From Alphaproteobacteria bacterium (GTDB taxonomy: Bacteria > Pseudomonadota > Alphaproteobacteria > MPNO01 > UBA2964): 63,307 nt of DNA. Shown piece after piece: positions 51,787-56,727 of this stretch. The DNA is taken from the NCBI GenBank assembly GCA_009377375.1, contig WHUE01000013.1, forward strand, positions 1 to 63,307, written 5' to 3'. The notes below the pieces were generated by a model. That model saw only the letters and a list, made by a program, of their open reading frames with translations. It made no database searches and was not told the DNA's origin. Numbering within the stretch: position 1 is the first letter of the stretch; each line of letters opens with the position of its first letter. The position numbers and the translations under genes were made by a program.

Positions 51787-54700
51787 TCAGGCGCGGCCCG
51801 AAGCCTGCGCGGCGCGACCGTCCCGCCGCCGGTCCCGCCATGCCGCGAGATTCGCCCGCAGCATCAGCGCGCTGGGGGTGACGATCAGCGTCAGCAGCGT
51901 GGCGAAGCCGAGCCCGAAGGCGATGGCGGTGGATATCTGCATCCACCACTGAGTGGACGGCGCGCCGTGCGTCACTTCGCGGGTGATGAAGTCGATATTG
52001 AGCTGAAGCGTCATCGGCAGCACGCCGAGCACGGTGGTGGCCGCCGTCAGCAGCACCGGCCGGAGGCGCTGCGCTCCGGTCAGCAGGATCGCCTCCACCG
52101 GGTCGCCCAGCTCGGCCAGCAGCCGGTCATGGGTGTCGATCAGGACGATATTGTTGTTGACCACGATCCCGGCCAGAGCGATCACGCCGATGCCGCTCAT
52201 CACGATGCCGAAGGGCTGGCCGATCGCCAGCAGCCCGAGCATCACCCCCACCGTGGACATGACGACCGCCGACAGGATCAGGAAGGTGGAATAGAAGCTG
52301 TTGAACTGGGTCACCAGGATGATTCCCATCACCGCCAGCGCCACGACGAAGGCGGTGCCGAGAAACGCCTGCGCCTTCTTCTGCTCCTCGTCCTCGCCCT
52401 TGAAGGCGACCTCCACGCGGGGGTCCAGCCCGGCGCCCAGTATCCAGGACCGGATCTCGCCCACCTTGCTGTCGGCCTGCACGCCGGGCAGCAGGTCGGC
52501 CTTGACCGTCATCGCACGCAGCCCGTCGATGCGCAGCAGCTCGCCCGTCTTCTGTTTCGCCATGCGCTGGACGAAGTTGCCGATCGGCACATGGCCCTGG
52601 CCGGTTTCGATCCGGATCTGATCGAGCTGGTCGATCGTGCGCCATTCGCGCGGGAACCGGGCGACGATGTCGACTTCCTCGTCGGAATCGTCGGGCCGGT
52701 ACTCGCTGAACTTCAGCCCCTTGGTGACGAGCTGGATGGCGCTGCCGATGGACTCGACGTCGGCGCCGAACTTGGCCGCCTGGGCGCGGTCCACGGCGAT
52801 CTGCCATTCGATACCGGGGACGGGGCGCGAATCCTCGATGTCTTTCAGCCCGCTCATGCCTTCCAGATGGGCGCGGATCTTCGCGACCGCCGGGAGTAGC
52901 GCCTCGGACGCGCGGGAGGTGAGCTGGATATGGATCGGCTTTCCGACCTGCGGGCCCGCCTCCTGCTTCCGGGTCTCGATCTCGATCCCGGCCAGGTGCC
53001 GGGTGCGCTGGCGGATTTCGGCGAGGATCTGGTCCGCCGGGCGCCGGCGGTCCCATTCGGCGAATTCCAGCCTGACCCTGCCGATCACGTCCTCAGGCTC
53101 GTTGTCCCGCCGCTCCAGCTCGCCGGCGACCATATTGATGGTGCGGAACTCCCCGCGCTCGCGCTGCATGGCCAGGACCTCGCGCTCCACCTGGATGACC
53201 AGCCGGTGCTTCTCGTCCACCGACAGGTTGCCGCGCGCGTGGACCTGGAGGATCGACTGTTCGGGCTCCACCTCCGGGAAGAACTCGATCCCCTTGCCGA
53301 AGTTGAAATAAAGCGCCCAGGCGGCGACCAGCGTCGCCATCGACAGGGCCAGCACCTTGCCCGGATGGCGCAGCGCGCCGCGCAGCCCCCCGACATAGGT
53401 GCCGGTGAAGCCGGTCAGGCTGCGCGAATCCGTAAATTCCTGCTGCGGGCTGGCATTGGCGGGGCGGCCGAAACGCGCCCCCAGCACGGGTATGAAGATC
53501 AGCGCCATCGCCAGCGAGGCGGCCAGCGTGGCGATCAGCGTGATGGGCAGGAACTTCATGAACTCGCCGACGATGCCGGGCCAGAACAGCAGCGGCATGA
53601 ATGCCGCCAACGTCGTCGCCGTCGACGCGATGATCGGCCACGCCATGCGCCGGGCCGCGGCCGAGTAGGCTTCGCGCCTGCCGGCCCCTTCCCGCATCCT
53701 GCGCTCGGCGAACTCGGTGACGACGATGGCGCCGTCGACCAGCATGCCGACGGCGAGGATCAGGCTGAACAGAACGACGATGTTGATCGTGAAGCCCAGC
53801 GTCGCCAGCACCAGCACCCCGGCGAGGAACGAGCCCGGAATGGCGACGCCCACCATCAGTCCCGATCGCAGCCCCAGCGCGCCGACCACCACGATCATCA
53901 CCAGCAGGATGGCGCTGGTGACGTTGTTCTGCAGGTCCCGAAGCATGGCGCGGATATCGCGCGACTTGTCCTGCGAGAAGCCGACCTCGACGCTCTCCGG
54001 CCAGGTGGCGGCCTCCGCGTTCACCAGCGCGCGGACCCGTTCGGTGGTCTCGATGATGTTCTCGCCCGTGCGCTTGGAGACCTCTATGGAGATCGCCGGC
54101 CGCCCGTCGGCGCGGGCGTATGAGGTGCGGTCCTTGAAGGTGCGGCGCACGCTGGCGATATCCGCGATCCGCACCGCCGAATCCCCGCTGACCTTGATCG
54201 GCATGTTCAGGATGTCGGCGGCGTCCTCGAACAGGCCCGGCACCTTGATTGCGAAACGTCCGGCGCCGGTGTCCAGCGTGCCCGCGGCGATCAGCCGGTT
54301 CGACCGCGACACCACCTCGATCACCTCGCGCGCGTTGATCGCGTAGCTTTGCAGCAGGGCGGGATCGATCACGATCTCGACCTGTTCCTCTCGGTCGCCG
54401 TTGATCCTGGCTTCCAGAATCGCCGGAATGCCCTCGATCTTGTCGCGCAGGTCGCGCGCCAGGCGGAGCAGGGCGCGTTCCTCCACATGTCCGCCGAGGC
54501 TGACCACCAGCACGGGGAACAGGCTGAGATTGACTTCGTGAACGGCGGGCTCGTCGGTCTCGGAGGGCAGTTCCGGCTTGGCCATGTCCACCTTCTCGCG
54601 CACGTCGTTCAGCGCGCGGTCGGCGTCGAACCCCGCCTCGAACTCCAGCAGCACCGTTGCCGAGCCCTGATAGGCGGTGGAGCGCATCTCCTTCACGCCC

Positions 54701-54924
54701 TCGATGGTCTGGAGCTCCTTTTCCATCGGGCGGACCAGCAGGCGCTCGGCGTCCTCGGGCGAGATGCCCTCATGCGTCATGCGCACATAGATGATCGGGA
54801 TGTTGACGTCGGGCTCTGCCTCCTTGGGGATGTTGATATAGGCGGAGAGCCCCATGCCGAGGATCAGCAGCAGCAGGAAAATCGCCGCGCGCGACCGCGA
54901 TATCGCGGCGTCGATGAGGCTCAA
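51787..54924 (-). CDS. RND-family efflux pump permease (AcrB-like)
   Basis: A 1045-residue inner-membrane proton antiporter of the RND superfamily. Twelve transmembrane helices in the usual 1+5+1+5 arrangement are interrupted by two large periplasmic loops. The N-terminus (AIFLLLLILGMGLSAYINIPKEAEPDVNIP) and the TM4 segment with the proton-relay Asp (LILAVGMLVDGAIVVTEFAERRM) identify it; the sequence is nearer to the ACR_tran hydrophobe/amphiphile exporters than to heavy-metal types. The start is TTG at 54924 overlapping the adaptor gene stop (TTGA), so the two are translationally coupled. No outer-membrane channel gene is adjacent. Confidence 0.94.
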   Translation of the reverse strand: MSLIDAAISRSRAAIFLLLLILGMGLSAYINIPKEAEPDVNIPIIYVRMTHEGISPEDAERLLVRPMEKELQTIEGVKEMRSTAYQGSATVLLEFEAGFDADRALNDVREKVDMAKPELPSETDEPAVHEVNLSLFPVLVVSLGGHVEERALLRLARDLRDKIEGIPAILEARINGDREEQVEIVIDPALLQSYAINAREVIEVVSRSNRLIAAGTLDTGAGRFAIKVPGLFEDAADILNMPIKVSGDSAVRIADIASVRRTFKDRTSYARADGRPAISIEVSKRTGENIIETTERVRALVNAEAATWPESVEVGFSQDKSRDIRAMLRDLQNNVTSAILLVMIVVVGALGLRSGLMVGVAIPGSFLAGVLVLATLGFTINIVVLFSLILAVGMLVDGAIVVTEFAERRMREGAGRREAYSAAARRMAWPIIASTATTLAAFMPLLFWPGIVGEFMKFLPITLIATLAASLAMALIFIPVLGARFGRPANASPQQEFTDSRSLTGFTGTYVGGLRGALRHPGKVLALSMATLVAAWALYFNFGKGIEFFPEVEPEQSILQVHARGNLSVDEKHRLVIQVEREVLAMQRERGEFRTINMVAGELERRDNEPEDVIGRVRLEFAEWDRRRPADQILAEIRQRTRHLAGIEIETRKQEAGPQVGKPIHIQLTSRASEALLPAVAKIRAHLEGMSGLKDIEDSRPVPGIEWQIAVDRAQAAKFGADVESIGSAIQLVTKGLKFSEYRPDDSDEEVDIVARFPREWRTIDQLDQIRIETGQGHVPIGNFVQRMAKQKTGELLRIDGLRAMTVKADLLPGVQADSKVGEIRSWILGAGLDPRVEVAFKGEDEEQKKAQAFLGTAFVVALAVMGIILVTQFNSFYSTFLILSAVVMSTVGVMLGLLAIGQPFGIVMSGIGVIALAGIVVNNNIVLIDTHDRLLAELGDPVEAILLTGAQRLRPVLLTAATTVLGVLPMTLQLNIDFITREVTHGAPSTQWWMQISTAIAFGLGFATLLTLIVTPSALMLRANLAAWRDRRRDGRAAQASGRA

Positions 54925-56000
54925 GACGCCCGCTCCACGGACTCCGCCACCGGCCGCACGCGCTCGCCGTCGCGGACATAGCCCTGGCCGACCGCGATCA
55001 CGGTTACCGCGCCGTCCAGCCCTCCGATCCAGATTCCCTCCGGCGTGTCGGCGAGAAACTCGACCGGCATGAAGCGCACACGGCTCTCCGCCGTCACGAT
55101 CTTCACGCCCATGCGCCCCTCATCGTCCAGGGTCAGCGCGGACGGCGCCACGAAATGGGCCATCGTCTCGGACAGCGGCAGCCGGATCTGGCTGGTCACG
55201 CCGTGGCGGACCGCATGATCGGGGTTGGGAATCTCCACCTCGAACCGGAAGGTGCGGGTGGCCGTGTCGGCGACGCTGGCGACATAGCGTATGCGGCCCT
55301 CAAGCTTCTCGCCGGTGACCAGCGCAGCCGTAGCGGGCGCGCCCACTGCAAGCGCGCCGATCTCGCGCTCGGTGACGCTGCCGACGACCAGGACCGGGTC
55401 CAGGTCGACCACCGTGGCGACGTCGTCGCCCTCCTTCACATAGTCGCCGAGCTCCACGGCGCGGGTGTCGAGCGCGCCCTCGAACGGCGCGCCGATGCGG
55501 GTGCGTGCGATGTCGGTCTCGATCCGGGCGATCCGCGACCGCGCGGCGTCGAGTTCCGCCGCGGAGGCGGCAAGCTGGGTTTCCGCGCGGAAACCCTTCC
55601 GGCTCAGCGAACGGGCGGCCTCGTACTCCATCTCGCGCTGCCGCAGCAGGGCGCGCGCCTCGGCAAGCTGCGCCGGGCGGTCGGCGGCGTCGATCTCCGC
55701 GATCAGCGCGCCGGTCTTCACCTTCTGGCCCTTGTCGGCGCCGATGCGGACAATGCGTCCGCCGGTCTCGGCCCGGATCTTCACGCTGCGCGTCGCCTCG
55801 GTGCGGCCGTGCGCGATGATCTGGCGCTGCCAGGGGCGGGGCTCGACGCGCCGCACCCGGACTTCCCGCGGTGCGGGGGCGACCGGTTCCGCGGCCATGT
55901 CGGCCCGGGCCGGACGGTCGTCGCGCCCGATCTGGCCGGACAGAATCCACCCCGCCGCGGCGAGTGCGACGACGGTGGCGATGACAAGCGATCTGTTCAT
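54921..56000 (-). CDS. RND efflux periplasmic adaptor (membrane fusion protein)
   Basis: A 359-residue adaptor of the HlyD/AcrA family. An N-terminal anchor (MNRSLVIATVVALAAAGWILSG) is followed by beta-barrel and lipoyl parts (RTEATRSVKIRAETGGRIVRIGADKGQKVKTGALIAEID), a long helical hairpin (about 110-165, LAEARALLRQREMEYEAARSLSRKGFRAETQ), and the second half of the lipoyl domain (TRIGAPFEGALDTRAVELGDYVKEGDDVATVVDLDPVLV). It bridges the RND pump to an outer-membrane channel. ATG at 56000 is preferred; ATG at 56033 is possible. Its stop overlaps the pump start. Confidence 0.93.
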   Translation of the reverse strand: MNRSLVIATVVALAAAGWILSGQIGRDDRPARADMAAEPVAPAPREVRVRRVEPRPWQRQIIAHGRTEATRSVKIRAETGGRIVRIGADKGQKVKTGALIAEIDAADRPAQLAEARALLRQREMEYEAARSLSRKGFRAETQLAASAAELDAARSRIARIETDIARTRIGAPFEGALDTRAVELGDYVKEGDDVATVVDLDPVLVVGSVTEREIGALAVGAPATAALVTGEKLEGRIRYVASVADTATRTFRFEVEIPNPDHAVRHGVTSQIRLPLSETMAHFVAPSALTLDDEGRMGVKIVTAESRVRFMPVEFLADTPEGIWIGGLDGAVTVIAVGQGYVRDGERVRPVAESVERAS

Positions 56001-56218
56001 GAGGCGGCCGGTCGTTCGATCTGCCCGAAACATGGGTATACGGGCCGGGGATTACAGGTCCGGCGGCCGGACTACAACCATTCCGTGCCTCGGCGGACGG
56101 GGCCTGACCGGCCCGATCGGGCGAGGGAGCCGGCGCCCGGTGTCGGAAATTTTTACAATCCGGCGGCCTTTCTCCCCCGTGGTTATTTATCCCATTGATT
56201 CCAAAGGAGAAAAGGAAC
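56001..56218. other. Spacer between efflux operon and sigma-54 promoter
   Basis: No gene seen. The region should hold the efflux-operon promoter (minus strand) and any upstream activator sites for the sigma-54 promoter at 56219. An AT-rich stretch lies at about 56149-56195. TGT and ACA occur 11 bases apart at 56141-56157, close to but not matching the TGT-N10-ACA spacing of NifA sites. No NtrC-like GCAC/GGTGC dyad was found. Confidence 0.4.
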
Positions 56219-56234
56219 TGGCACGCATTTTGCA
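56219..56234 (+). promoter_or_regulatory. Sigma-54 (RpoN) -24/-12 promoter
   Basis: TGGCACG-CATT-TTGCA is an exact match to the RpoN consensus TGGCACG-N4-TTGCA, with the invariant GG and GC exactly ten bases apart. Transcription should start about 12 bases after the GC, near 56245, rightwards. It needs a sigma-54 activator; none is encoded in this window. What follows is not a protein gene but a short structured, terminated segment. Confidence 0.8.
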
Positions 56235-56244
56235 TAAAGGATGA

Positions 56245-56364
56245 AATCGCAAGCGGCGCGGCTTCGCTTTGTTTCATGAGGCGCCGTAAACGAATTGCCT
56301 GACGCCAACCCCGGGTAATTCGTTTCAAGGGCGGCGGTCCGGGTAACCGGGCCGCCGTTCCTTT
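56245..56364 (+). ncRNA. Candidate sigma-54-dependent structured small RNA (~120 nt)
   Basis: From the predicted start (about 56245) to the T-rich end (56364) the transcript would fold into three consecutive stems. Stem 1: CGGCGC (56254-56259) with GCGCCG (56281-56286). Stem 2: AAACGAATT (56288-56296) with AATTCGTTT (56317-56325), nine perfect pairs, extended by GCC/GGT. Stem 3 is a terminator hairpin with a GTAA loop. No ORF with a ribosome site lies inside the predicted RNA: a 12-codon ATG frame at 56241 begins before the expected start site. The family is not recognised. Promoter plus terminator plus compact folding support an sRNA; expression is unproven. Confidence 0.55.
56332..56364 (+). 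terminator. Intrinsic terminator of the candidate sRNA
   Basis: CGGCGG-T-CCGG (56332-56342) pairs with CCGG-G-CCGCCG (56347-56357): eleven pairs including one G-T, closed by a GTAA (GNRA-type) tetraloop and followed by TTCCTTT. It stands about 28 bases before the truncated VOC frame. Confidence 0.65.
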
Positions 56365-56391
56365 GTCCGGGCCGATCCTCCCGGCCTCCGC

Positions 56392-56727
56392 TTGCGGGCG
56401 CCGGGGGACCGGGTCGCTAGCCTCGACGACCTGCGGGCCTTGAGCCGGATCGTCGACGGGCGCGACGATGTCAGCGACATCCAGCCCGTGAACCACGGCA
56501 ACGCCTGGTCGTTCTGCTTCCGCGATCCGGAAGAGAACCGTATCGAGCTCTATCTCGACACGCCCCGGCAATGCACCCAGCCGCACCGCGAACGGCTGGA
56601 TCTGTCTCCCGACGACGAAGAAATTCTCCGCGTCACCGACGACCGCCTGCAGGACGATCCGAGCCGGAAGCCGGCCGGGGACCGGGCGCGGGAAATCGCG
56701 GCGCGGCTGACCGCCGGGGCCGGCTGA
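56392..56727 (+). pseudogene. Truncated VOC-family gene (C-terminal module only)
   Basis: A 111-codon frame (TTG at 56392) whose translation RVASLDDLRAL, then QPVNHGNAWSFCFRDPEENRIELYLDTPRQ, aligns with the second half of the intact VOC protein at 27064-27588 (there FRVKTLGELRAM, PIDHGNSWSVYFLDPEGNRLEVYLATP). The first module, with the N-terminal metal ligand, is missing, and the sequence upstream is the candidate sRNA instead. No ribosome site is evident. It is best read as a decayed remnant; a functional single-module VOC protein is less likely. Confidence 0.7.

Follow-up and report, generated by a model that had tools for sequence, protein, structure and literature searches.

Positions 56245-56366 of the window, by which we mean the whole stretch of 63,307 nucleotides analyzed here, are best read as specifying a stand-alone, PrsR/sigma-54-induced RNA related to the 3' ends of PEP-CTERM mRNAs. 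Judged by sequence comparison, it most probably represents a new family of small RNAs linked to the PEP-CTERM regulon, and on balance we lean toward a free-standing small regulatory RNA that is part of the PEP-CTERM/PrsR/sigma-54 regulon and acts by its loop. The features of the locus are collected in Table 1.

Table 1. Features of the candidate RNA locus and the neighboring efflux operon (window positions)
Feature	Position	Strand	Remarks
RND gene of the efflux operon	51787-54924		Pfam ACR_tran
Divergent HlyD-type membrane fusion protein gene, first of the RND efflux operon, outside the RNA	54921-56033	-	Pfam HlyD_D23
Enhancer-like motif 1, TGTCGGAAATTTTTACA, predicted PrsR site	56141-56157	+	Sole copy in the window; matches motif 1 of Haft 2006
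Sigma-54 (-24/-12) promoter, TGGCACGCATTTTGCA	56219-56234	+	Exact match; genome family of 20 vs. 0 reversed controls
Predicted non-coding transcript, about 120 nt	56245-56366	+	Start placed from the -12 element; fold z -4.5; no ORF of at least 10 codons
First stem, 7 bp (56253-56259/56281-56287)	56253-56287	+	Fold only
Relic-like frame MRRRKRIA*, like arginine-rich PEP-CTERM protein ends	56276-56302	+	Stop TGA runs into the loop
Decaloop hairpin, 14 bp with G-U pairs (56288-56301/56312-56325)	56288-56325	+	Loop ACGCCAACCC at 56302-56311
Intrinsic terminator, 11 bp GC hairpin (56332-56342/56347-56357)	56332-56363	+	GUAA loop, then UUCCUUU

The exact RpoN consensus match reported in the preliminary description is confirmed letter for letter, with TGGCACG (56219-56225) and TTGCA (56230-56234) separated by CATT, and it is the single match in the window to a looser sigma-54 pattern. 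Because the 4.36 Mb genome contains 20 copies of TGGCACGNNNNTTGCA and none of the reversed pattern, the site in the window is not a chance occurrence. The -12 element lies at 56233 and the transcript is therefore expected to start at about 56245.

This site carries the -24 GG/-12 GC motif of PrsR/sigma-54 (PEP-CTERM) regulon promoters, and TGTCGGAAATTTTTACA lies upstream of it across a 61-nt spacer. Haft et al. (2006; PMC1569441) describe this layout ahead of proteobacterial PEP-CTERM genes: a 17-nt motif 1 ending in TTTACA, then a spacer with a mean length of 63 nt, then a sigma-54 motif 2, with PrsR predicted as the binder. Across the genome, YGTCGG-N5-YTTAC[AG] is found 77-80 nt upstream of the -24 motif at 17 of the 30 TGGCACGNNNNTTGC sites, whereas about 7% of random 29-nt stretches taken from the same DNA contain GTCGG; motif 1 stands at this fixed distance at all solo loci as well. 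The genome encodes PrsR (TIGR02915, 690 bits against a cut-off of 502.6) and contains 25 PEP-CTERM ORFs over the cut-off, many of them directly behind such promoters. With motif 1 at this spacing and both PrsR and PEP-CTERM genes in the genome, we infer that the window promoter belongs to the PEP-CTERM regulon and that PrsR would bind at 56141-56157. In Desulfovibrio vulgaris, the regulator predicted for PEP-CTERM genes binds PEP-CTERM promoters in vitro (PMC3333781), and a PEP-CTERM gene of Aquincola requires RpoN, experimental control of this type coming only from that other bacterium (PMC9850573). A response to nitrogen or carbon status, as had been suggested, is not evident; motif 1 and PrsR place the promoter in the PEP-CTERM/PrsR regulon (exopolysaccharide, floc), and exopolysaccharide/PEP-CTERM control of the RNA is the likelier. 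The locus thus resembles the PEP-CTERM/PrsK-PrsR/sigma-54 region of Haft et al. in motif 1, the spacer of about 63 nt, motif 2 and the presence of PrsR in the genome, but the sites in the available portion of that paper precede PEP-CTERM and a few other genes, with RNA unmentioned there, whereas here a structured, predicted non-coding transcript follows (PMC1569441).

The predicted transcript folds at -62 kcal/mol, a value that none of 200 shuffles matched, whereas nothing unusual is seen on the opposite strand (-45.4, z -1.0), and the strand was assigned accordingly. All three of the stems first described do fold, the middle one being longer than noted (14 bp rather than 9-12), but comparison bears out only stems 2 and 3; stem 1 is absent from the relatives and has no comparative support. 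At the middle stem the R3 hairpin model scores 45 bits, its only match in the window. The terminator hairpin is conserved and covaries among relatives, and its tail in the window, UUCCUUUG, is modest, with an interrupted U-tract weaker than that of most relatives. No PEP-CTERM sorting signal ORF lies between promoter and terminator, and the window is not among the TIGR02595 matches.

The lack of a supported ORF reported earlier holds, and it bears on whether the transcript could be a small mRNA for a short peptide. Related loci lend this idea some substance: the solo copies of G003 and G005 contain ORFs of 33 and 43 codons, and ORFs of 50-odd codons lie ahead of a related hairpin at G017:C339 and G001:C180, both behind PrsR-type promoters. 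However, the RNAs of G001:C3 and G015 have no ORF of at least 10 codons, the ORFs are not conserved between the copies of genus g4, and we consider a small mRNA highly improbable because the window RNA itself has no such ORF.

The family to which the RNA belongs, as defined here, combines a hairpin, with a stem of 12-14 bp and a 10-nt loop reading A-Y-GCC-W-ACCC, and a GC-rich terminator after it. The window has the covarying stem, the AYGCCWACCC loop and the terminator directly downstream, and this hairpin and terminator recur at about a dozen loci, spread over eight genomes from a single uncultured order of Alphaproteobacteria. Compensatory base changes, named at the outset as the test of the structure, are found in stems 2 and 3 far beyond the shuffles. 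A nine-member alignment (A1) has 11 pairs changed on both sides, a figure reached in 0 of 500 shuffles, and an 18-member alignment (A2), which was fitted to the model, has two-sided changes in 16 of 26 pairs. When 13 hairpins are aligned without gaps (A4), all 12 pairs show two-sided changes, again reached in 0 of 500 shuffles, and 92% of cells are paired, against 31-44% with the helix slid; covariation collapses on sliding the helix by one base. The loop is nearly invariant overall (A-GCC-ACCC without exception). A conserved loop on a stem that changes in compensating pairs therefore looks like a previously undescribed RNA family, and a stand-alone RpoN-driven, terminated small RNA at 56245-56366, as originally proposed, is supported by the covariation of stems 2 and 3, the enhancer at fixed spacing and a syntenic solo copy.

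The hairpin always precedes the terminator, in mRNA ends and solo RNAs alike, which would suit a mere 3'-end stabilizer, or one half of a bipartite terminator serving transcripts of the PrsR regulon, that does not act in trans. Such a role would require the stem, however, but no invariance of the 10-nt loop. In the RNA of G017, two of the three hairpins are not adjacent to the terminator, and a transcript standing by itself carries no message in need of protection. We regard this explanation as quite unlikely.

The distribution of the family is narrow. The hairpin model retrieved 15 hairpins in eight genomes, followed by chance matches; weak matches came up in G006:C6, G007, G014, G015, G025 and G020, and the first five proved on reading to be chance. 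Among the 58 matches of a pattern scan over 84,980 species, seven have the stem or promoter and all of these fall in one alphaproteobacterial group, the remainder lacking both and being attributable to chance. A class-wide covariance search of 385 genomes gave 79-101 bits within the order and at most 39 elsewhere, nothing outside the order being comparable. Low-scoring matches examined within the order were mostly terminators, and since terminators are common the E-values of this search are too optimistic. By the names in the genome scan, the family belongs to uncultured Alphaproteobacteria (UBA830, UBA2964, “Rhodospirillaceae” SP3 and others). In the class-wide search it was confined to one order and not spread across the Rhodospirillales.

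Kinship with PEP-CTERM mRNAs is apparent at the 3' ends. When 97 relatives were searched at the DNA level, a single short match came up, to the 3' end of a PEP-CTERM gene in G019, and the same hairpin ends the PEP-CTERM genes at G003:C15, G019:C13, G017:C340 and G019:C118, with weaker forms at G017:C222, G017:C297 and G001:C69. In these genes the stop codon TGA spans the final two paired positions of the 5' arm and the first loop base, and PEP-CTERM genes with homologous hairpins end in RRKRTA*, RRRKTV* and RRRRAI*. PEP-CTERM-like last codons are kept in solo copies, as MRRRKRIA* in the window and VRCRRAV* in frame in the g4 copies. From this we infer that the solo RNAs descend from PEP-CTERM 3' ends or that exchange has continued. 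Two loci show related arrangements. At L183 (G019:C118:3439-3528, minus strand), TAA interrupts a PEP-CTERM ORF just before its arginine tail (GLA*MRHRKIV*) and the 3' hairpin is intact. At L253 (G017:C339), a PrsR-type promoter precedes a 54-aa ORF, with a likely membrane segment and no Pfam match, whose stop codon lies within a GAGCCAACCCC hairpin loop.

Solo copies with motif 1 and a sigma-54 site were found in the window and at G000:C22, G001:C3, G003:C7, G005, G006, G008 (-12 element one base off) and G017:C281. Two copies of the conserved core TGACGCCAACCC are present in the window's own genome; at the second (C22:50138), the stem is unrelated (GGACAGGCUGUUUG/CGGACAGUCUGUCC) but the loop is the same, and a sigma-54 site and a terminator are present. 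The solo copies of the window and of G017, which belongs to another family of the order, are syntenic: both diverge from the HlyD-RND operon, in which RND is 65% identical, and both are flanked by Ppx-RlmE on the opposite side. The G017 RNA is about 300 nt long compared with 122 in the window. It contains three hairpins in tandem whose stems are unrelated and whose loops read AUGCCUACCC, AUGCCUACCC and ACGCCUACCC. Within genus g4, a second solo locus has been conserved. The region from promoter to hairpin is not conserved between loci, and several relatives that have the efflux operon have no RNA beside it. Directly 3' of the terminator in the window, a 111-aa ORF (56392-56727, plus strand) resembles by eye the C-terminal half of a glyoxalase/VOC protein; it has no Pfam match and is possibly a truncated gene.

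The resemblance to gene ends raises the question of whether the locus is a functionless remnant, left when the body of a PEP-CTERM gene was deleted and only the sigma-54 promoter, last codons and terminator stayed behind. The match in G019 first gave rise to this suspicion, and it is in keeping with the MRRRKRIA* frame, with the hairpin-terminator shared with PEP-CTERM gene ends and with the ..VRCRRAV* retained in frame in the g4 solo copies. However, enhancer, promoter, hairpin and terminator are all retained at several loci with compensating changes, solo copies sit at orthologous places across genera or families, and the hairpin has been multiplied in G017. A dead remnant is unlikely because of the compensating changes and the conserved promoters.

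We return to a regulatory RNA acting by its loop, for which the following course of events may be envisaged. PrsR at 56141-56157 would activate RNA polymerase-sigma-54 at 56219-56234, and the RNA would be induced along with exopolysaccharide/PEP-CTERM genes. The transcript is predicted to fold into a hairpin exposing the unpaired, C-rich 10-nt loop and to end at the GC hairpin terminator. The loop would be the working part, its sequence being kept while the stem drifts in compensating pairs, and it most likely pairs with G-rich stretches of target mRNAs, of the type 5'-GGGUUGGCGU-3', when the exopolysaccharide/PEP-CTERM program is on. The module probably either originated in PEP-CTERM mRNA 3' ends, where the stop codon lies at the loop, or is common to them and the solo RNAs. 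By analogy, the C-rich loop probably acts by base-pairing, as does the seed in other C-rich-loop alphaproteobacterial small RNAs; this rests on analogy because a search for loop complements upstream of ATG was swamped by chance matches (15-41 matches per genome, many of the form GGG-TTG-GCG-ATG, like coding sequence). An exact decaloop complement, CCGGGGTTGGCGTC, lies in a short hairpin before a terminator at L191 (G001:C301:4336-4417, minus strand), and may be chance, an inverted copy or an antisense partner.

The main rival to base-pairing is protein titration, in which AYGCCWACCC is bound by a protein that also binds PEP-CTERM mRNA 3' ends and is titrated by the solo RNA in the manner of CsrB or CrcZ. 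The near invariance of the loop, independent of stem sequence, would fit such a decoy, as would its presence in regulon mRNAs and the three tandem hairpins of the G017 RNA, an arrangement typical of titrating RNAs. Most solo copies, the window included, nonetheless have a single hairpin, the loop presents neither the GGA nor the A-rich (AANAANAA) motif of known titrators, and no candidate protein emerged; we hold this reading to be doubtful.

Compared with known RNAs, the window RNA stands apart. In the Rfam search the only match in the window was a tRNA and permissive matches in the RNA region fell far below gathering scores, so that the family, unrecognized at the start, reaches no Rfam threshold; CcsR1 (RF02791) scored 20.9 bits against a gathering score of 65.3, and CrcZ, GlmY and other Rfam small RNAs gave no match at gathering score. 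CrcZ, GlmY and NrsZ are gammaproteobacterial sigma-54 small RNAs with a stand-alone promoter and terminator, as predicted for the window RNA, which differs in having no Rfam match, a different activator and no A-rich Crc/Hfq motifs. The C-rich hairpin loop is shared with CcsR1-4 and other alphaproteobacterial small RNAs, and a tie to mRNA 3' ends is a further likeness, CcsR1-4 deriving from a 3' UTR (PMC8625941), but the loop of the window RNA is ACGCCAACCC rather than CCUCCUCCC and its promoter is of the sigma-54 type. GlnZ is an RpoN-dependent small RNA of the nitrogen regulon, cut from the glnA 3' UTR, and is alike in its sigma-54 regulon and in a 3'-end module adjoining a stop codon with seed and terminator (PMC9731577); unlike GlnZ, the window RNA has its own promoter and an unrelated sequence. 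No paper on a PEP-CTERM small RNA was found in the literature searched. The kind of RNA is thus known, a sigma-54 small RNA that is kin to mRNA 3' ends, while the family and its link to the exosortase appear to be new in the libraries and papers searched.

Other short RNAs were seen behind sigma-54 sites. At L187 (G001:C264:4650-4830), a PrsR-type promoter precedes a short RNA with the repeated unit GCYSAUCCGCAAGCUGAMCCCA and a terminator. At L258 (G015:C178, in a fourth family; sigma-54 at locus position 847), a short, terminated RNA whose loops are C-rich (AGCCCCCAACCACCCUCCAAC) lies behind a motif-1/sigma-54 promoter, the same design in a different sequence. At L030 (G000:C255:9036-9120), a site that resembles a sigma-54 promoter but has no proper motif 1 stands ahead of a short RNA with a terminator, the hairpin loop ACCUCCUCCCC and a sub-threshold Rfam match to anti-hemB (29.8 bits against 49.5).

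The PEP-CTERM/exosortase system is needed for floc formation in cultured bacteria, and no RNA regulator for it turned up in the searches made here. With an activator, a promoter and an active loop all predicted, the RNA family defined here lends itself to direct tests in any culturable relative. It also offers a clear case in which mRNA 3' ends and stand-alone small RNAs share a module, with intermediates within one order. More tentatively, the mRNA ends and solo RNAs may form a new RNA arm of the exosortase/PEP-CTERM system, sharing and competing for one partner, whether RNA or protein. If true, a shared decaloop partner would couple surface-protein output to the exopolysaccharide state.
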